DNA of 64,000 nucleotides from the IMG/VR virus record IMGVR_UViG_3300047554_000447, positions 22,349-86,348 of that record; one strand, written 5' to 3'. The position numbers and the translations under genes were made by a program. The notes under the pieces were generated by a model, which saw nothing but the letters and a program-made list of their open reading frames with translations, did not search any database and was not told the origin of the DNA. Source of the DNA: a virus. Shown in pieces: positions 2,424 to 56,786 of the stretch (its first letter is position 1; every line of letters starts with the position of its first letter).

Positions 2424-3257
2424 ATGCGTAATCACTATTGGACCTGCTCTAAGTTTGCTGACTGGCTTCGTGGCACCACTAAGGGCGGAGCCAAGACTAG
2501 TGAAGGCTGGGACGAATGGGAAGCTCGTGCCAAGGCCGCATATCCCATTCGTTGGTGGCTAGCCGAAGAAGGCTTAGACTACCTACAGCGAATCGTTTAC
2601 TTTATTCCGGACACATTATACAGTGCAAAATACTATATTAATAACCGCTGGGTTACTCGTACTCATGCTCTTACTGCTCATCCTCGGGATATCAAGCCTG
2701 GTACTTGGTCAGATGTTGGGCACCGTTTTCTCCCATGTCTTTTCAATGAGCTTCAAGATTTTGTAGAAGTTGAACTAGCATGGTGGCACATTGCCTGGGC
2801 AGATCCTGCCGAAAAGGCAAAGTATAACGCACCATTCTGGGCCACTGGTTGGTTCCGTTGGCGTACTTGGCGTTGCCCACAAGCAGGTCTTGATAATCTC
2901 AAGTGGCAAAGCGAGCTTCGTCATACTGTTGACGACGGCTGGGAAGAAGGCGATCCAAATGTTGGCACACCTACTCCGCAGGCCGAAAGAGCCCTAGAAA
3001 TACTAGCACTTTACAAGTGGTGGACTGAAGTTTATCGTAATCGTCCAGATCCTCACGATGCTAGCGGGTGGAGTGAATACTGCGAACGCAAACGCGAGGA
3101 AGGCGGTAGTTTTATCGGAGAAGCCAAAGATCCAGAACTTCGTGCGTTCGGTGAGGCGGCTCTGAAGAAAACGCACGAAATTGAACAAGCATATGAAGCA
3201 GAAGACGAAGCTATGTTAATTCGTCTTATCAAAGTGAGACATGCACTTTGGACATAA
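2424..3257 (+). CDS. Trp-rich conserved-type phage protein, function unknown
   Basis: A 277-residue soluble protein strikingly rich in tryptophan and charged residues (WRWRTWRCP, YKWWTEVYR). The frame is open to a TTG at 2403, but the ATG at 2424 directly follows the BI-1 stop and gives MRNHYWTCSKF, so it is preferred. The upstream purine stretch is a weak ribosome site and translation is probably coupled. No catalytic motif is recognised. It ends just before a late-type promoter at 3253. Confidence 0.8.
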   Translation: MRNHYWTCSKFADWLRGTTKGGAKTSEGWDEWEARAKAAYPIRWWLAEEGLDYLQRIVYFIPDTLYSAKYYINNRWVTRTHALTAHPRDIKPGTWSDVGHRFLPCLFNELQDFVEVELAWWHIAWADPAEKAKYNAPFWATGWFRWRTWRCPQAGLDNLKWQSELRHTVDDGWEEGDPNVGTPTPQAERALEILALYKWWTEVYRNRPDPHDASGWSEYCERKREEGGSFIGEAKDPELRAFGEAALKKTHEIEQAYEAEDEAMLIRLIKVRHALWT

Positions 3258-3260
3258 ATA
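3253..3260 (+). promoter_or_regulatory. Late-type promoter (CATAAATA)
   Basis: CATAAATA matches the T4 late element TATAAATA and the NATAAATA form known from marine T4-like phages. It overlaps the stop of the preceding gene and lies 22 bases before the next ATG, with the strong ribosome site AAAGGAGG at 3268-3275 between them. Confidence 0.6.
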
Positions 3261-3282
3261 TTTTTGAAAGGAGGTTGTTACT

Positions 3283-3528
3283 ATGAAACAACTATTAATC
3301 GCAGTAGGTCTAGCAGTAGCATTTGCAGGTACCGCAGTAGCCAAGGAAGAAACTAAAGATGTTAAAGCCAATGGCAAGACAGTAGAAGTTAGGGTTCCAA
3401 AAAGCTCTAAGATTGATTGCAAAGTCGAGGCTAACAAAGCTAAGACAGAGTGCAAGAAACCTACTAAGGAAATGCCTAAGGTTGAAAAACCAAAAGCTGA
3501 AGCACCAAAAGACGCACCTAAGAAGTAA
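3283..3528 (+). CDS. Small exported Lys/Pro-rich protein
   Basis: An 81-residue protein with a classic signal peptide (MKQLLIAVGL then AVAFAGTAVA, cleavage expected after Ala20). The mature part has two cysteines (DCKVEA, TECKKP) that could form a disulfide, and a Lys/Pro/Glu-rich tail ending KDAPKK. It has the best Shine-Dalgarno in this region and its own late-type promoter and terminator, so it is likely a highly expressed monocistronic gene. A periplasmic role during late infection is plausible; no family is recognised. Confidence 0.75.
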   Translation: MKQLLIAVGLAVAFAGTAVAKEETKDVKANGKTVEVRVPKSSKIDCKVEANKAKTECKKPTKEMPKVEKPKAEAPKDAPKK

Positions 3529-3534
3529 ATAAGG

Positions 3535-3575
3535 CCCGCTCCTCTATGACTTAGTCACACGAGCGGGTTTTCTTT
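3535..3575 (+). terminator. Rho-independent terminator
   Basis: CCCGCTC (3535-3541) pairs with GAGCGGG (3561-3567) and is followed by TTTTCTTTT. The loop holds a second small hairpin, TGAC-TTA-GTCA. It closes the small exported protein gene. Confidence 0.88.
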
Positions 3576-3597
3576 TGGCCACAAGATAATTAACTAT

Positions 3598-4353
3598 ATG
3601 TATTTTGATAACTGTAAGAGGCTTGTTGTATTCGGCGATTCGTTAACCTACGGTCACGGTCTTCCAGATGCCGATAATTTAAAATTTGAAAAGCCAAGCA
3701 GTTTGTCTTGGGCTAACACAGTGGCTATGAATTACGGCCTTGAATTATATAATAAGGCGATACCCGGAAGTGGTAATGATTCAATGTTTCGAGCCTTTAA
3801 CGAATATTTAATTGGTATATTTGCCAACGATCACCATAATGCTACTCGTAGATTTTCAGCAGTCTACAAGCCTGGCGATGCTGTAATCATTGGTTTAAGC
3901 AATCTATGGCGCACTGAAGTTTATGATTTTAGACATCAACGATACGAAAGAATACTAGTCAACAGCGAATATTTTTATGATCCTGATCTAGAAAAATCTG
4001 TTAGGTACATTATGGCCGCTGAAAGCGAGGATAGTCTAATTTCAAAGATGCTACAACAGATACACAATATAGTTTCAATGTGTAGACATTATAATATACC
4101 GGTGTTGTTATTCCATGCTCTGCCACCAATCGATCATAAAACTAACAGCGACATTATCAATCAAACATATATCCCACCATCGTGCCAATCAATGTTAAAA
4201 CGTACAAATTGTCGAGAGTGGCTCACTGAAGTTATGCACAACGAAATATCTTTAAAGTTAGGTAGAGATCATTTTTTACCCTGCGGACACCCTAGTGCAT
4301 CCGGTCAAGACTTCTGGGGTAAAAGATTAATCAATTATATTGAGGATTTATGA
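3598..4353 (+). CDS. SGNH/GDSL-type hydrolase
   Basis: A 251-residue esterase-like protein. The nucleophile block is VVFGDSLTYGHG (Ser15), GSGNDS is a plausible Gly/Asn oxyanion block, and GHPSASGQDFWG near the C-terminus supplies the His. SGNH enzymes add or remove acyl groups on glycans or lipids. It starts a three-gene unit with a glycosyltransferase-like protein (4-base overlap) and a UDP-sugar dehydrogenase, so modification of a surface glycan is likely. No clear Shine-Dalgarno precedes the ATG; GATAAT sits 7 bases upstream, hinting at a short or absent leader. Confidence 0.8.
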   Translation: MYFDNCKRLVVFGDSLTYGHGLPDADNLKFEKPSSLSWANTVAMNYGLELYNKAIPGSGNDSMFRAFNEYLIGIFANDHHNATRRFSAVYKPGDAVIIGLSNLWRTEVYDFRHQRYERILVNSEYFYDPDLEKSVRYIMAAESEDSLISKMLQQIHNIVSMCRHYNIPVLLFHALPPIDHKTNSDIINQTYIPPSCQSMLKRTNCREWLTEVMHNEISLKLGRDHFLPCGHPSASGQDFWGKRLINYIEDL

Positions 4354-5549
4354 AAGTAAAAATATTTGTAGAAGAAGGCGATCGAGTTCCGTATGTGAAC
4401 GGATTTAAAAAAGAAATCGCTGAAAAAATTATCATACCTCAGTATTATCCCGAAGGATTTTTTGGTCTATACGGCCCTCCATTCTTTAGAACATACGAAC
4501 CTGTAAATGCTATTCCCGAAGATAAATTCTATTATCCAATAATTGTTAGTTTATGGTTGATCATTGATAATATTGAGCACCTCGAAATACCAACTGAAAT
4601 TATTTCTTGTATTAAATCTCAACAGGCAAAGATATTATTAGTAAATCCATTTGAGGGTTGGGAGTGGAGTTACTGGGAATCTCTAGTAGAGAAAATCGCA
4701 GATAAATTTAATTTATCATCAGACGATTTTGTCTGCCTAACAGGCAATCACTCTCCTCTAACTAATTTAAAATCTATCGTGTTTAATTTTTGGGAGTTTG
4801 GTTATCAATATAATCTCTTAGAAGAACATAGATTAAAATTTATCGAATCAGTTAAGAATCTAGACGCTAAACCTTATAAGTTTATCTGTCTAAATCGCAG
4901 GCCTCATTTTCACAGACTGGCTCTAGTACAGATGTTGTTTGATATCAAAGATCAAGGAATCCTAACCTGTGCAAAACAAGGAGCAATCGCACCCGAATAT
5001 TTTACTATGCATCTTAATAGATTGCAAAAATACGACGAAGGAATACATGATCGATTCGTTAAAAATATACTTCCAGTATTGCCGTTGACCGTCGACGACG
5101 GCATTGATGTTGAGATAGAAAATCCTGCACTGGATACTAAGTATGATAAATTTTTCGATAGTTATATTCATATAGTAACAGAAACATTTTTTGAACAACT
5201 CAATAATAGAATGTTTTTCAGTGAAAAGGCTTTTAAGCCGATGGCTATGTTACAGCCATTTGTGTTTGTTGGTCAACGTCACTCATTAAAAACTCTCAGA
5301 GACTTAGGATACAAAACATTTCAACCATATATAGATGAAAGCTACGATGAAATCGTCGATGACCACGACCGTATGCAGGCTGTGGTAAAAGAGATAAAAA
5401 GATTAACGGCTCTTGAACATGATCAGCTATGGGTACTAATACAGCGTATTCGCCCTATTATTGAACATAATTTTCTGCACATTTATACTAGAGCTGATAT
5501 TATCAAAGAACAATTAAAATCTGAATTAATTAAAGGATTAGAAAAATGA
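4350..5549 (+). CDS. Glycosyltransferase-like protein (putative)
   Basis: A 399-residue protein without signal peptide. The segments FICLNRRPHFHRL and, later, FFSEKAFKPMAMLQPFVFVG followed by LRDLGYKTF resemble the C-terminal half of GT-B enzymes of the fucosyltransferase type, where a Glu/Lys pair contacts the sugar nucleotide. The N-terminal half is not recognised. It is coupled to the SGNH gene before and the sugar-nucleotide dehydrogenase after it by 4-base overlaps, which supports a glycan role. The exact donor and acceptor are unknown. Confidence 0.6.
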   Translation: MKVKIFVEEGDRVPYVNGFKKEIAEKIIIPQYYPEGFFGLYGPPFFRTYEPVNAIPEDKFYYPIIVSLWLIIDNIEHLEIPTEIISCIKSQQAKILLVNPFEGWEWSYWESLVEKIADKFNLSSDDFVCLTGNHSPLTNLKSIVFNFWEFGYQYNLLEEHRLKFIESVKNLDAKPYKFICLNRRPHFHRLALVQMLFDIKDQGILTCAKQGAIAPEYFTMHLNRLQKYDEGIHDRFVKNILPVLPLTVDDGIDVEIENPALDTKYDKFFDSYIHIVTETFFEQLNNRMFFSEKAFKPMAMLQPFVFVGQRHSLKTLRDLGYKTFQPYIDESYDEIVDDHDRMQAVVKEIKRLTALEHDQLWVLIQRIRPIIEHNFLHIYTRADIIKEQLKSELIKGLEK

Positions 5550-6775
5550 AAATTGCGATGATTGGTTGCGGCAAATTAGGTTTACCCTGCGCCGAAGTGA
5601 TGAGTCAACACTACGACGTAGTTGGCTACGATGTTGTTAAGGACCCGACTGCACAAATACCTTTACTGGATTCCATTAAGGAAGCAGTCACTGGAAAAGA
5701 TTTAATTTTCGTTGCAGTTCCCACGCCTCATGACCCAGAATACGGCGGTAGTAAACCTATCGCTGAAATGCCTTCTAAAGATTTTGACTACACTATAGTT
5801 AAGCAGGTATTATCCGATATCAATCAATATGTAAACAAGAATCAGTTAGTGGTACTAATTTCTACAGTGCTTCCGGGAACAGTAAGAGAACATCTCGCAC
5901 CGAGGATCACTAATGCTAGATTTATCTATAATCCTTATTTGATTGCTATGGGATCGGTTAAATGGGACATGGTCAACCCAGAATGTCTAATCGTTGGTAC
6001 AGAAGACGGCTCACGCACTGGTGACGCAGGACTATTGATTGATTTTTACAAGCCGATCATGGAAAATGATCCTCAGATTAATGTAGGCACATGGGACGAA
6101 GCAGAAGCTATTAAGATCTTTTATAACACATTTATTTCAGCTAAGATTGGTTTGGTTAACATGATCCAAGATGTTGCTGAAAAGAATGGTAACATTAATG
6201 TAGACGTAGTAACTGATGCACTCAAGGCCGCAACACAAAGGATTACCGGGCCTCGTTATCTAACTGCTGGTATGGGAGATGGTGGTGCTTGTCATCCTCG
6301 AGACAACATCGCTTTAAGGTATCTAGCAGAAAGATTAGATCTAGGCTACGACTTATTCCATGCAATTATGCACAGCCGAGACATGCAGGCTAAGAACATG
6401 GCTTTAAAATTAGTCAACTTGGCTAAAGAACATAAGCTACCTGTGGTCATACACGGTCGTGCTTATAAGCCCTATGTTCCATATACCATCGGATCTTACT
6501 CAGAATTAGTTGCTCATTTCGTTATGGATGAGGGTGTAGAACTACAGTATGCAGATCCAGAAACTGGAGACTTTGTCCAGAATGGTTTGGCGGCTGTTAT
6601 TCTTTTAGCCCATAACCCAACCGTAACCTATTTTGGTACTGGTGTTGCTGTAAAACCACATGATTTCTATTTTGAGCCCGGAATTGGTTCTGTATTTTTG
6701 GACCCGTGGCGCATGACGCCGGATATTACTGGAATGACTGTTATCCATTACGGAAATACCCGAGTCCAAAAGTGA
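5546..6775 (+). CDS. UDP-glucose/UDP-ManNAc dehydrogenase family protein
   Basis: Oxidises the C6 hydroxyl of a nucleotide sugar to the uronic acid with two NAD+. An N-terminal Rossmann fold carries GCGKLG (residues 7-12); VAVPTPHDP and STVLPGTV are family blocks. The catalytic cysteine is in GGACHPRDN, corresponding to the usual GGSCFPKD, and the middle helical domain has KIFYNTFISAKIGLVN. At 409 residues it is of normal length. It is the last gene of the glycan unit; a perfect sigma70 promoter starts right after its stop. Confidence 0.85.
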   Translation: MKIAMIGCGKLGLPCAEVMSQHYDVVGYDVVKDPTAQIPLLDSIKEAVTGKDLIFVAVPTPHDPEYGGSKPIAEMPSKDFDYTIVKQVLSDINQYVNKNQLVVLISTVLPGTVREHLAPRITNARFIYNPYLIAMGSVKWDMVNPECLIVGTEDGSRTGDAGLLIDFYKPIMENDPQINVGTWDEAEAIKIFYNTFISAKIGLVNMIQDVAEKNGNINVDVVTDALKAATQRITGPRYLTAGMGDGGACHPRDNIALRYLAERLDLGYDLFHAIMHSRDMQAKNMALKLVNLAKEHKLPVVIHGRAYKPYVPYTIGSYSELVAHFVMDEGVELQYADPETGDFVQNGLAAVILLAHNPTVTYFGTGVAVKPHDFYFEPGIGSVFLDPWRMTPDITGMTVIHYGNTRVQK

Positions 6776-6804
6776 TTGACACAAATATCAAATGGTCGTA
6801 TAAT
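6776..6804 (+). promoter_or_regulatory. Consensus sigma70 promoter
   Basis: TTGACA (6776-6781), a 17-base spacer and TATAAT (6799-6804): a perfect consensus promoter. It begins immediately after the preceding stop and drives the gene at 6839. Such a promoter would be read by unmodified host RNA polymerase early in infection. Confidence 0.9.
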
Positions 6805-6838
6805 ATAGATATTGTTAATAACAACGGAGCAATCAAAA

Positions 6839-8041
6839 ATGGCTAAAGCCGCAACCAAAACTCGTGTTACTAAAAAGCAAGTTCAAGCCCACCGTACTCG
6901 TGCCGTAAAAGACACTAGTCCGAATTGGGAGGGTTGCGAATCATGGGATGGCGATAAGTTTCACAAGTATTTTCGTCATGCTATGGACTACCATCGTCTT
7001 GAGAGCGAAATTAAAACCTACAAACCTATCGTAGTTAAATGGATGGAAAGCCAAGGTTGCGCTAAAGCAGACATCGCCGCTATCAAGAAAGTTAAAGATA
7101 ATCGCATCAGCACTACTATGGGAGCTGTTGCTCACTGTCTTACTCGCGGTATGACCCCTCAACGTGCAGATTTTAATAACGGACGTGATACTGCTGAATG
7201 GTTACGTGCAGAAATTGTCAAGGTTATCGCCGACGGTAAAGACGACATTGACCCGGAAGTTGCGGCCGCTGAAAAAGAAGCGTCAAAGGCCAATGTCTAT
7301 GTTCCAACTATTCAAGAACGTGTTCGCGAAGCCGCTTCACGAATGACTGAGGAGATTGAAGACGCTCTCGAGAGCTTTAACGCAGATGCAGAAAACTTTG
7401 ATCCTAAAGCGTTCAAACTGCTAAACCTTCTCAAAGGTAAAGGTGTAAAGGCCGCACATGCTCGTATTATTAAAGACTTCTACTCTAGAGATTTAGACGA
7501 GCTTCTTGAGTTAGCTAGTGGCAAAGCAGATGAGCAACTTCGTGAAGGTTACAGTCACCGTAGTCGCAAACAGATTAAGAACTTGATAGTGTTCTATCAA
7601 GAAATCCATGCGGCCTGTGACATGCTCATGCAAGAAGCAAAGGTTAACAAAAAGCCGCGAGCTCGCAAGACAGTTCCAGCTGAAAAGATCGTAGGTAAGC
7701 TCAAGTACATGAAAACCAACGAGCCTCTCAAGTTAGTCTCTATCAATCCTACAGATATTTTGGGTGCTAAAGAATTGTGGATTTACAATACTAAGACTCG
7801 TAAACTGGGCAAATATGTAGCTTCAGAATTTAACGATCTTGGCGTTAAAGGTACTTCAATTACCGGGTTTGATGAGAATGCCAGCATACAAAAGACTCTG
7901 CGTAAGCCTGAAGAAAAGCTCAAAGAGTTTAAAGCGGCTGGCAAGGTCGCATTACGCAAGTTCTTAGAGGATATCAACGCTGTTGATACCAAAATGAACG
8001 GCCGCATTAACGAAGAAACTATCCTTTTAAAAGTAGCGTAA
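6839..8041 (+). CDS. Conserved-type phage protein, early expressed, function unknown
   Basis: A 400-residue basic protein. The frame is open to a TTG at 6812, but that lies near the expected transcription start; the ATG at 6839, 10 bases after CGGAG, is the better start. The N-terminus is Lys/Arg-rich (MAKAATKTRVTKKQVQAHR), the middle is helical and acidic, and a C-terminal domain (LVSINPTDILGAKELWIYNTKTRKLGKY) looks beta-rich. The perfect sigma70 promoter predicts strong early expression, and the basic N-terminus suggests nucleic-acid contact. No family function is recognised. Confidence 0.82.
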   Translation: MAKAATKTRVTKKQVQAHRTRAVKDTSPNWEGCESWDGDKFHKYFRHAMDYHRLESEIKTYKPIVVKWMESQGCAKADIAAIKKVKDNRISTTMGAVAHCLTRGMTPQRADFNNGRDTAEWLRAEIVKVIADGKDDIDPEVAAAEKEASKANVYVPTIQERVREAASRMTEEIEDALESFNADAENFDPKAFKLLNLLKGKGVKAAHARIIKDFYSRDLDELLELASGKADEQLREGYSHRSRKQIKNLIVFYQEIHAACDMLMQEAKVNKKPRARKTVPAEKIVGKLKYMKTNEPLKLVSINPTDILGAKELWIYNTKTRKLGKYVASEFNDLGVKGTSITGFDENASIQKTLRKPEEKLKEFKAAGKVALRKFLEDINAVDTKMNGRINEETILLKVA

Positions 8042-8049
8042 GGTTCGGT

Positions 8050-8094
8050 AGGGCCATAAGATAAATACTCGAAAGAGAGTATTCTTATGGCCCT
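8050..8094 (+). promoter_or_regulatory. Late-type promoter inside a start-codon-sequestering hairpin
   Basis: AGGGCCATAAG (8050-8060) plus AATACTC (8064-8070) pair with GAGTATT plus CTTATGGCCCT (8077-8094), an 18-bp stem with a 3-base bulge (ATA) and loop GAAAGA. The ATG at 8087 lies in the right arm. GATAAATA (8060-8067), a late-type promoter, lies in the left arm, so RNA started there lacks most of the left arm and cannot form the stem. Confidence 0.75.
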
Positions 8095-9463
8095 AAACAT
8101 CTATGAACCTATGAAATTTCGTAGTCAAGGTATTGAAGACCTTGCTACGCACGAAACGCTAGTTATCACTAACGGAAAAATCACTGTCGACACAGTCGAG
8201 CCTAAAAAAGCGGTGTCTTTTGCGGGTGCGAATTTTGCTGAAATCGAAGGTAATGGCATCCGCTGGACTGACGGTCGCAAGGCAAAAACACTAGCATTTA
8301 AGGAATCAAAGCTCTGGACAGATTTAACTCTTAATCTAGACGAAGAACAAGAATACCAAATCAATAACACTACAGTTTTGAGCTTCACAGAGCTAGGCTC
8401 AACTGTTACTAAAAGTAACCTAAAACAAGTAGGTGTTCTTAAAAATCTAAGAGTAGCCGGAAATGCGTCCTTTGGAGACTTTGCCTATGCTATGGGCAGT
8501 CTAAATCGCTTTGGTATTAACACAGATGCGCCGGGTGCGGCTCTAGGCATTGTTGAAAATTCTGTAGAGATTTTGCTAGGAAGTTTAAAACAAGACACAG
8601 CGATCTTTGGAACACACAGCAACGATCATTTAGAAATCATCACTGATAATACTACTAGAATAACTGTTACAAATTCTGGTGAAGTTGTTATCGGGTCTGC
8701 TAATCATAAGAACGGAATACTTCGTGTAAATGGTACCCTGTATGCTGATGCGATCGTTACAGAAAGATCTAGTCCATTAGTTTTTAAAGAATCAGACACT
8801 AGCTCAAACTACGGTAAAGGAATTATTTGGGCAGGTAAAACTGGTCCAAACAAACAGCTAGTATATCAGGCTAACCCAGATCGCATTTGGTCAACTGATA
8901 TTATTGACCTAGCACAAGAGAAATACTTTGCTATTGAAAACCAGATGGTCTTAAGCAAGACTAGCCTAGGCACTAGCGTAGTTGAAAGCTCATTAACAAA
9001 ATTAGGTATACTTAAAGATCTACAAGTTGCTGGCGATGCGGCGATCACTAGAAAACTTTCAACTAGCAGAATCGAAATAGGCAAGTTCGCTGTCGATGAA
9101 AACCGTTTAGAGTTTGATAGAAACTTTAGCATCCAGCAAGGTACACTAAGTGAATTTAGAATCGGATCAGATATCACTATCGGTAACAGCGACAACACAA
9201 CTAGAGCCGTATCAGTTTACGGTAGACTCGCAGTCGGAACTGCTAGACCCGGTGATGATGTTTCATTAACTGTGTCAGGACCTGTTAGTTTTGAAAACAA
9301 GAAGTTTAAGGTAGGATCTGGAATCCCAACATTTGGTGATTACAACAAAGGAGATGTTGTTTGGAATGACGATCCAAAGGCCGGCAGTCACATAGGCTGG
9401 GTCTGTATCACTGCTGGTTCTCCAGGATTCTGGTTGCCGTTCGGCTATATCGGCTCACGATGA
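8087..9463 (+). CDS. Fibre-like virion protein with internal duplication
   Basis: A 458-residue beta-rich protein resembling tail-fibre or structural proteins of marine T4-like phages. Two segments, around residues 78-128 and 264-317, repeat the same pattern: IWSTDIIDL in the second matches LWTDLTLNL in the first, and both end in LGILKDLQVAGDA or VGVLKNLRVAGNA. The C-terminus (GDVVWNDDP, then GWVCITAGSPGFWLPFGYIG) is a typical fibre tip cap. It is expressed from the late-type promoter in its own leader hairpin. The exact location in the virion is not known. Confidence 0.75.
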   Translation: MALNIYEPMKFRSQGIEDLATHETLVITNGKITVDTVEPKKAVSFAGANFAEIEGNGIRWTDGRKAKTLAFKESKLWTDLTLNLDEEQEYQINNTTVLSFTELGSTVTKSNLKQVGVLKNLRVAGNASFGDFAYAMGSLNRFGINTDAPGAALGIVENSVEILLGSLKQDTAIFGTHSNDHLEIITDNTTRITVTNSGEVVIGSANHKNGILRVNGTLYADAIVTERSSPLVFKESDTSSNYGKGIIWAGKTGPNKQLVYQANPDRIWSTDIIDLAQEKYFAIENQMVLSKTSLGTSVVESSLTKLGILKDLQVAGDAAITRKLSTSRIEIGKFAVDENRLEFDRNFSIQQGTLSEFRIGSDITIGNSDNTTRAVSVYGRLAVGTARPGDDVSLTVSGPVSFENKKFKVGSGIPTFGDYNKGDVVWNDDPKAGSHIGWVCITAGSPGFWLPFGYIGSR

Positions 9464-9464
9464 T

Positions 9465-10055
9465 GTGAAAAATATATGGGTAGTAGGCAACGGTCAGAGT
9501 AGATCTAGCGTTGCCCTAAATCAATTAAACGGTCTCGTTATTGGTTGTAACGCAATTCATAGAGATCATATCTGTGATGAATATGTTGCTGTAGATCGTA
9601 GAATGGTCGACGAAATACTCAACAACGAATTAAATCACAACATTCCAGTTTACACTAGACCAGACTGGATAAACTATTATCAAGAAACTCCTAGCGTAAA
9701 GGAGTTGCCAAGACTTCCTTTTGATGGAACAAACAAAGCAGATCAAGCATTTCATTGGAACTCGGGACCATACGCTGTATTAGTTGCCGCAAATAAAGCA
9801 CCTGAAAACATTCATCTCGTAGGCTTCGACCTATGGAGTAAGACTAGTTTTGTCAATAACATTTATAAAAACACACAAAACTATGCGGCGCACGATTCGA
9901 GAAAAGTAAGTCCAGATTTTTGGATCTACCAATTAAAAAAATTATTTGAACACTTTGATGAAATAGAATTTATACAACATCAACAAACAGATTGGCAAAT
10001 TCCCAAGCCTTGGATGGCGATCAAGAACTTGACAATTAGATACGATATTGTATAA
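9465..10055 (+). CDS. Putative nucleotide-sugar/glycan-related protein, function uncertain
   Basis: A 196-residue protein using a GTG start one base after the previous stop, without a Shine-Dalgarno and probably coupled. The N-terminus KNIWVVGNGQSR then VIGCNAIHRD and YVAVDRRMV resembles the Rossmann-like start of MptE/DUF115-type proteins and sialyltransferase-like phage proteins, followed by NIHLVGFDLWSK. It is near two other glycan genes. Membership is tentative. The last 27 bases hold a sigma70 promoter for the next gene. Confidence 0.65.
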   Translation: MKNIWVVGNGQSRSSVALNQLNGLVIGCNAIHRDHICDEYVAVDRRMVDEILNNELNHNIPVYTRPDWINYYQETPSVKELPRLPFDGTNKADQAFHWNSGPYAVLVAANKAPENIHLVGFDLWSKTSFVNNIYKNTQNYAAHDSRKVSPDFWIYQLKKLFEHFDEIEFIQHQQTDWQIPKPWMAIKNLTIRYDIV

Positions 10056-10056
10056 T
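10029..10056 (+). promoter_or_regulatory. Near-consensus sigma70 promoter for queD
   Basis: TTGACA (10029-10034), a 16-base spacer and TATAAT (10051-10056). It overlaps the end of the preceding gene. The predicted start near 10063 falls exactly at the foot of a hairpin (AGAGG at 10064, CCTCT at 10084). Confidence 0.85.
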
Positions 10057-10062
10057 TACTAT

Positions 10063-10139
10063 TAGAGGACTTCGACGTTCACCCCTCTTTAAATACTCTG
10101 CATGTCATCAAACTTGCTACTTTTATAAGGAGACTAGAG
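10063..10139 (+). promoter_or_regulatory. Structured queD leader with possible second, late-type promoter
   Basis: About 77 bases between the predicted transcription start and the queD ATG. AGAGG (10064-10068) pairs with CCTCT (10084-10088) around a 15-base loop, followed by the A/T-rich TTTAAATA (10088-10095), which is also a late-promoter-like element. The strong ribosome site AAGGAG lies at 10127-10132. The layout (short 5' stem and A-rich tail before a preQ1-pathway gene) recalls preQ1 class I riboswitches, but the loop-tail pairing of that class is not evident. Confidence 0.45.
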
Positions 10140-10664
10140 ATGGCAAAATATCTTTCTACAAAAACATACGGCAATGACCGAGGTCTTAGTTGTTGCTTTA
10201 GACAATGGCGTTCGACACATAGTCATTGCTCATTACTACATGGATACTCAATCGGTATCAAACTAATTTTTGAATCAGAAACACTAGACGACCGTAACTG
10301 GGTCATGGACTTCGGTGGGCTTAAGGCATTCAAAGAGTGGAGCGAGTATATGTTCGATCATACTCTTGTAATCGCAGAAGACGATCCTCATCGAGCTATG
10401 TTCGAAAAAATGGCTGAACTTGGTCTCCAAGATCAAGGAGGTGTCTGTGATATTCGTATCGTTCCTGCTGTGGGCTGTGAGAAGTTTTCCGAACTTGCTT
10501 ATAAAGAAATGGAAACGATCTTACACATTTTCAAAACCGGCAACGACTATTATTGCCCTAATGGACAAATATTCAAAGCAAGATATCCTGTTGGTCAAGG
10601 TGTTAAACTTCGTTCAGTTGAAGTTTTTGAACACGCAGGTAATTCCGCAGTATACGAGATCTAA
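10140..10664 (+). CDS. queD: 6-carboxytetrahydropterin synthase / PTPS family protein (QueD-like)
   Basis: The family converts 7,8-dihydroneopterin triphosphate to 6-carboxytetrahydropterin, the second step to preQ0/queuosine and 7-deazaguanine. Seen: the catalytic-type Cys30 in HSHCSLLHGYS, VMDFGGLK after it, and the Asp73-His74 pair in MFDHT. The usual zinc motif HGH reads HGY, and the first zinc His is not obvious (FRQWRSTHSH in its place), which I believe is typical of a phage/marine-bacterial clade. It could therefore have altered chemistry. A QueC homologue is encoded at 32316-32906; no QueE or FolE is in the window. Confidence 0.82.
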   Translation: MAKYLSTKTYGNDRGLSCCFRQWRSTHSHCSLLHGYSIGIKLIFESETLDDRNWVMDFGGLKAFKEWSEYMFDHTLVIAEDDPHRAMFEKMAELGLQDQGGVCDIRIVPAVGCEKFSELAYKEMETILHIFKTGNDYYCPNGQIFKARYPVGQGVKLRSVEVFEHAGNSAVYEI

Positions 10665-56278: not shown

Positions 56279-56300
56279 AAATACAAAGACTCTTAGCTGA

Positions 56301-56330
56301 TCCCTCTTACGATAAATATTGTAAGAGGGA
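56301..56330 (+). promoter_or_regulatory. Hairpin with a late promoter as loop, over the ribosome site
   Basis: TCCCTCTTAC (56301-56310) and GTAAGAGGGA (56321-56330) form a perfect 10-bp stem. The 10-base loop (56311-56320) begins with GATAAATA, a late-type promoter. The right arm holds the GAGGG ribosome site of the ATG at 56337. RNA started at the loop has only the right arm, so the site is free. Confidence 0.78.
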
Positions 56331-56336
56331 TTTCTT

Positions 56337-56786
56337 ATGACTAAGACACTTTTAGAGTACATTGAAGAAGTTGAACTAGCTGGAGACGAAAGCGATATTT
56401 CAGCAGGTGACGGCTTTGACATTGAAATCAGCGAAGATGCTGTTATTGAAACTACTGTTATCGACTCATGGGATGACAGCATTCTTATCAGTCTAGATTC
56501 TACAGCGATCGCTATGCTGTCAGAAGCTAACATCGAACTTATCACCGAAGCAGAATATCAGGGCAGAAAAGTACCGTTAGGTAAGCCTATGAAGGGTGAT
56601 GTTAAAAAATCTAAGGTTTATGTAAAAGGCCCTAAAGGTAATGTAGTCAAAGTTAACTTTGGCGACAAAAAGTTGAGCATTAAAAAGCATATTCCAGGAA
56701 GACGTAAAAATTTCCGGGCTCGTCATAATTGCGATAATCCAGGTCCACGCTGGAAAGCAAGATACTGGTCTTGTAGGGCATGGTGA
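56337..56786 (+). CDS. Putative head-associated protein with compact basic C-terminal domain
   Basis: A 149-residue protein. The N-terminus TKTLLEYIEEVELAGDE is an acidic amphipathic helix like T4 capsid-targeting peptides. The middle is acidic, while the last 85 residues are basic: GRKVPLGKPMKGDVKKSK, then KKHIPGRRKNFRARHNCDNP and WKARYWSCRAW, a compact Cys/Trp domain widespread in T4-like marine phages. Its leader is a switchable hairpin. A role inside the capsid or in DNA packing is inferred. Confidence 0.72.
   Translation: MTKTLLEYIEEVELAGDESDISAGDGFDIEISEDAVIETTVIDSWDDSILISLDSTAIAMLSEANIELITEAEYQGRKVPLGKPMKGDVKKSKVYVKGPKGNVVKVNFGDKKLSIKKHIPGRRKNFRARHNCDNPGPRWKARYWSCRAW

Follow-up and report, generated by a model that had tools for sequence, protein, structure and literature searches.

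A predicted T4-style hairpin lock on a fibre-like gene of an uncultured phage and its relation to terminators at the same junction in relatives

Sequestering hairpins of T4 and the hairpin at the fibre-gene start

The T4 late genes e, soc, 49, and I-TevI are described in a review as being blocked on early RNA by a hairpin (PMC3014915), and the same mechanism is described for homing endonucleases, late genes that are carried on early or middle polycistronic RNAs (PMC2988022). In e, 49, and soc, the ribosome-binding site and/or the AUG is reported to pair with upstream sequence that is missing from the late RNA, the early RNA reads through into the gene, and the late box resides in the 5′ strand of the hairpin (PMC3014915). 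Phage Aeh1 mobE likewise combines a late promoter with a hairpin sequestering the ribosome-binding site in an early operon (PMC2988022), a system that is likened to the present one by its description only. The mechanism is already known from T4 (e, 49, I-TevI, and segB) and is hence not new. The start of a fibre-like gene in a 64-kb window, the whole stretch of DNA analyzed here and a portion of the 86,348-base record of an uncultured virus, has an arrangement similar to that of e, 49, and soc. The genes themselves differ from those of T4: here, the predicted lock is placed on a fibre-like gene that follows one gene driven by a sigma-70 promoter. The hairpins nearest in shape are those of T4 segB and I-TevI, where it is the late box that forms pairs with the spacer and the AUG; segB and I-TevI are homing endonucleases, whereas here the gene is a virion gene and the arm is extended into codons 2 and 3.

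The hairpin of the window (8049–8095; all features are on the plus strand) has a stem that folds into 19 bp. The outer 13 nt of the left arm (8049–8061) pair with 8083–8095, a segment composed of the spacer, the AUG, and codons 2 and 3, and the inner 6 nt (8065–8070) pair with 8077–8082. A 3-nt bulge (8062–8064) interrupts the left side, and a 6-nt loop (8071–8076) closes the stem. The 19-nt right arm (8077–8095), assigned from the fold and from covariation, contains the ATG at 8087–8089, which as AUG is paired throughout, and the Shine-Dalgarno-like sequence AGAGAG (8074–8079) is divided equally between the loop and the stem. The late-type promoter box GATAAATA (8060–8067) is positioned on the left side of the stem, with some of it within the bulge. 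The first-pass annotation had proposed an 18-bp stem at 8050–8094 with the start codon in its right arm and a late-type box in its left arm; the computed fold agrees with this description, 18 of the 19 bp lying within those bounds. T4 late transcription starts six nucleotides beyond the end of the box. When this spacing is applied to the end of GATAAATA, the predicted start falls at ~8073, inside the loop, and the position of the box would thus yield a late RNA that lacks the left arm and has an open start codon.

Folding by thermodynamic calculation, which the first-pass annotation had put forward as a check, gives a strong stem: the minimum free energy of a 71-nt piece is −33.7 kcal/mol compared to −12.5 kcal/mol for shuffles (z = −7.6), and none of 200 shuffles is as low. 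Perfect 13-nt arms spaced by 40 nt or less are found nowhere else in the window, and 30 shuffles of the window contain one such site in total. The hairpin has no T tract. A scan of the window against Rfam returned no match at the gathering score, and two sub-threshold microRNA matches of the hairpin were set aside as chance. Opening the region from −15 to +6 of the gene at 8087 costs 25.9 kcal/mol in the long RNA versus 3.4 kcal/mol in the predicted late RNA. When the sequence upstream of the box is shuffled, none of 100 versions reaches the former value, and the folding of the predicted late RNA is indistinguishable from that of shuffles (z = 0.23).

The same measure was calibrated on a T4 set that excludes I-TevIII, 39, and mobE. 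Among the T4 genes reported to be sequestered, e (15.8), 49 (17.7), segB (17.3), I-TevII (13.2), I-TevI (14.0), and 26 (14.6) score high, and soc (7.9) and 25 (7.8) score low. Nine boxed, ordinary T4 late genes (9, 15, 18, 19, 20, 22, 24, 51, and inh) range from 1.1 to 11.3, denV scores 12.5, and gene 55, which has no adjacent box, gives a false signal of 17.8. The opening cost is a useful but not perfect measure. By this measure, the lock of the window belongs to the same energy class as those of T4 e and 49 and computes stronger than either.

Genes, promoters, and late boxes around the junction

The gene upstream of the hairpin (6839–8041) encodes a 400-residue protein that was assigned to PHROG 11903 by a profile match and is present in relatives. 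It is preceded by the promoter TTGACA-17-TATAAT at 6776–6804, which matches the sigma-70 consensus at 12 of 12 positions, as the first-pass annotation had stated, and is conserved in relatives. A scan of 3000–10500 located plus-strand terminator-like sites at 5080, 5089, 5240, 5617, and 6674 and none between 6776 and 8087, in keeping with the earlier claim that an early promoter and a late gene are joined without a terminator. The gene downstream of the hairpin (8087–9463) has relatives and encodes a 458-residue protein that matches a virion structural protein family (PHROG 6002, 8.7e-23) and, at its C terminus, a short tail fibre family (PHROG 2617, 2.3e-6); “fibre-like” is a fair designation for it on these matches. 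The model of this protein has a pLDDT of 35.7. Neighboring genes encode a UDP-glucose dehydrogenase, a QueD-like protein, a DNA ligase, and endolysins. A further 12-of-12 sigma-70 promoter, with a 16-nt spacer, is found at 10029–10056, upstream of the QueD-like gene at 10140.

No DNA similarity of the window to cultured phages was detected, and a search with the fibre protein returned no relatives; these were found with the upstream protein instead. The upstream protein is highly conserved, with a mean column identity of 81% over 35 sequences. Its model is mostly helical (pLDDT 73, pTM 0.35), and a search of PDB structures with this model gave no match at E 0.001. The consensus promoter of the PHROG 11903 gene is strikingly conserved. 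In 80 distinct regions upstream of homologues of this gene, the best sigma-70 match is 12 of 12 in 62, 11 of 12 in 13, 10 of 12 in four, and 9 of 12 in one; 62 of 1600 random 180-nt control pieces of the same loci, which may contain the promoter itself, reach 11 or 12. On the strength of this conserved consensus promoter, we infer that the gene at 6839–8041 is early.

The assignment of the late-type box draws on its sequence, on the positioning of ATAAATA, and on a gp55-like sigma factor in large relatives. ATAAATA is found 14–31 nt upstream of an ORF start in six of its eight occurrences in the window and in 13 of 26 in a 167-kb relative, compared to at most 40% and at most 15%, respectively, for the 20 remaining permutations of its five A and two T. 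A gp55-type late sigma factor (PHROG 12791, E 4e-72 or better) is present in all five relatives of 161 kb or more and absent in all eight records of 80–120 kb, including the 86-kb fragment to which the window belongs. The definition of the box was widened by the spelling GCTAAATA after locus L145 had been inspected, which adds the rows L145 and L176 to the comparison of relatives.

The junction in relatives

Searches with the upstream protein supplied 80 of 346 and 80 of 319 matching loci, which together with the window make 149 sequences. These contain 145 stop codons, and 85 of the junctions downstream are distinct. At 67 of the 85, the homologue of the upstream gene is followed by a late box and an ORF start; 17 without a box and one with a box but no ORF start were left out. 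Each junction was scored by the computed cost of opening −15 to +6, separately in the long and the late RNA. The 48 junctions without a terminator have opening costs of 13.0–25.9 kcal/mol (median 18.6), compared to 3.5–17.0 kcal/mol (median 10.0) for the 19 with a terminator (Mann-Whitney p = 2e-9). At a cut of 13 kcal/mol, which was read from the data themselves, all 48 terminator-less junctions lie at or above the cut versus three of the 19 with a terminator (Fisher 9e-13, uncorrected for relatedness). The opening cost in late RNA is at most 4.7 across the 67 junctions. When only the sequence upstream of the box is shuffled, five or fewer of 100 shuffles score as high in 42 of the 48 terminator-less and 10 of the 19 terminator junctions. 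In the remaining six terminator-less junctions, pairing between the box and the start region lets more than five of 100 shuffles, all of which retain the box, reach the observed cost.

The architecture of this junction varies: among the 67, it is of type A in 37, type B in 11, and type T in 19, with at least 18 changes on the upstream-protein tree. The expectation that a junction has either a hairpin or a terminator, never both, was not borne out: opening costs of at least 10 kcal/mol are also computed for 10 of the 19 junctions with a terminator, and the two elements are thus not mutually exclusive. A binary independent-pairs test on starred branches gave, for six pairs, none changing in the same direction, typically four in opposite directions, and two without a difference, a result short of significance (p = 0.125). 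Energies were compared with our own script in ten pairs whose paths on the best tree, with its weak branches retained, do not overlap. In 263 of 300 random draws, the hairpin was weaker in the terminator member of all ten pairs, and in the other 37 this held for nine pairs; the sign test for ten of ten is 0.002. The arrangement is family-wide, with a terminator instead or in addition at 19 of the 67 junctions. Two side observations concern individual loci. In L006, L155, L159, L033, L146, and others, a stretch TTTTGGCT after the terminator stem is complementary to AGCCAA at the late-gene start, so that read-through RNA would still pair back onto the first codons. In L043–L045, L047, L079, L172, and L175, the upstream gene is followed by a different conserved junction without ATAAATA, which reads TGAGATAAGTA or TGAGCTAAGTA... 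and then GGAGACTAGAGATGGCAAA.

Intrinsic terminators between early and late genes presumably serve the same purpose as the hairpin, and it is at the homologous junction that they are found in these 19 cases; terminators halt transcription, whereas the hairpin would allow passage and block translation. The new part of this comparison is that hairpin and terminator look like alternative insulators that have been swapped repeatedly at one junction. The literature covered, consisting of titles and the openings of abstracts with subscription papers mostly outside it, gave no report of such hairpins in uncultured phages or of an exchange with terminators.

An exact pattern of the core hairpin and the ATG has 27 matches in IMG/VR, all 27 behind a homologue of the upstream gene, and several of these carry near relatives of the fibre gene of the window. 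Homologues of downstream proteins were located away from the upstream gene in six distinct places, two of them without a box. In each of the four boxed cases, the cost is lower than that of the homologue at the focal junction (6.3 versus 16.0, 9.2 versus 21.2, 8.0 versus 16.6, and 14.7 versus 19.0), and the two proteins of the 6.3/16.0 pair are 97% identical. The highest opening cost among 16 late-box genes scored in a 167-kb relative is that of the focal gene (20.8), followed by one at 13.8 and 14 at 9.0 or less, and the focal gene is the only one of the 16 with a 12-of-12 sigma-70 site within 2.5 kb. Six of 34 further late-box genes, from the loci and the window, reach 13.

A second case in the window is the gene of PHROG 7595 with its ATG at 56337 (plus strand), where an 11-bp hairpin within 56300–56339 has arms at 56300–56310 and 56321–56331 and GATAAATA (56311–56318) in its loop. 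Its opening costs are 23.2 in the long RNA and 4.1 in the late RNA. With 80 loci fetched for this gene, it was rejected as a conserved lock: 57 of 81 records, the window included, have no box before the start, and three of 23 distinct boxed starts, again with the window included, are at 13 kcal/mol or more. A third late-box gene with a computed lock (G000:C1:21418, L199), ~930 bases before the start of the window, scores 18.6 in early and 7.1 in late RNA. Its 242-residue product contains a HEVIH motif, which we take to be of the kind seen in zinc metalloproteases. In the distant jumbo phage PA5oct (L283, 4050–4115), a late-type box stands before a neck-protein gene, and the structure there is weak (7.3).

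Covariation was assessed in an alignment of 49 distinct sequences with the box in the arm, comprising 36 of the 37 type-A junctions (without L116) and 13 of the pattern hits. Cells are paired in 78.8% of cases versus 29.7–42.9% when one side is slid, and changes on both sides affect 52 cells, where shuffles predict 28.3 (reached in 0 of 500). Two of five measures do not rise above the shuffles, namely pairs with changes on both sides (6 versus 6.0) and further pair types (22 versus 20.2). Fewer than half of the sequences are paired at the outermost columns, and the inner helix is nearly invariant, so that the support comes mainly from the column pair 23–55, which holds GC in 35 sequences, AU in 11, GU in two, and another combination in one, and from the column pair 18–59. 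The left arm covaries with the codons of the downstream gene, as visualized in the combinations ATGGCC/GGCCAT and ATGGCA/TGCCAT.

Alternative explanations and the proposed mechanism

The hairpin is located directly after the stop codon of the early gene, where other relatives have a terminator, and strong stems are known to protect the 3′ ends of RNA. Both points would suit a 3′-end or processing element of the early mRNA, be it a stabilizer, an RNase target, or a weak terminator, whose overlap with the start codon is incidental. We consider such an element very unlikely, since the distance from stop codon to box varies from 6 to 40 nt at terminator-less junctions whereas the end of the box stays 18–23 nt before the ATG, and since the T tract is missing, the left arm follows the codons of the downstream gene, and the late-gene homologues that lie apart from the early gene have weaker structures. 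That the inverted repeat works as DNA and controls the late promoter in the form of an operator or a cruciform is extremely improbable: the arms are entirely outside the box in several relatives (L049, L057, L066, and L081), the outer-arm sequence varies with pairing preserved, and G-U pairs occur frequently (14 of 49 at columns 20–57), which fits RNA better than a DNA site. Such a role would account for a promoter box inside a near-palindrome, and a review reports that I-TevI binds at its own late promoter and thereby represses it (PMC2988022).

The timing itself depends on the upstream gene being early. If this gene were late or constitutive, the hairpin would tune the level of the fibre protein rather than its timing, and the homologue in PA5oct does directly precede the neck-protein gene. 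Even this homologue, however, has TTGACA-18-TACAAT by sequence, and a consensus sigma-70 promoter with 11 or 12 of 12 matches is found in 75 of 80 relatives. A NATAAATA box is present in none of 80 in the 60 nt before the start used, a count that is weak where this start is an internal ATG (nearly half). A role in level rather than timing is therefore very unlikely. The literature listing covered did not assign the PA5oct homologue to a time class.

The hairpin very probably functions as a temporal lock of the T4 type on translation of the fibre gene, with early read-through, late start, repression, and release all deduced from sequence. Early, RNA polymerase with the host sigma factor would start at 6776 and transcribe the gene at 6839–8041, and in the absence of a terminator the RNA would continue into the fibre gene at 8087. 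In this long RNA, the hairpin would take up the AUG together with some of the ribosome-binding site in its stem, with little or no fibre protein being made early. Late, a gp55-type sigma factor would recognize GATAAATA at 8060, transcription would begin at ~8073 inside the loop, and the resulting RNA, without the left arm, would present an open start codon from which the fibre protein could be made. The hairpin, the promoter sequences, their conservation, the covariation, and the trade-off with terminators are computed or observed here, and the last three lend comparative support, step by step, to the earlier proposal that the early RNA would be silenced and the late RNA free. The silencing arrangement is also the same one that reviews describe as experimentally established for T4 e and I-TevI (PMC3014915, PMC2988022).

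For the one conserved early-to-late junction considered here, which is common to a sizable group of uncultured T4-like phages, we lean slightly toward the view that hairpin and terminator are interchangeable insulators, gained and lost repeatedly as one fibre gene replaces another downstream of an unchanged early gene, with the left arm re-evolving to match the first codons of each new gene. The T4 hairpins are known from few genes in few phages, whereas dozens of natural versions are observed at this junction: box in the arm, box in the loop, terminator with a weak hairpin, and terminator alone. The junction may therefore allow one to ask how phages silence late genes on early RNA and how the exchange of fibre genes affects this, and it would provide a sequence signature for the boundaries between early and late genes in uncultivated phages.
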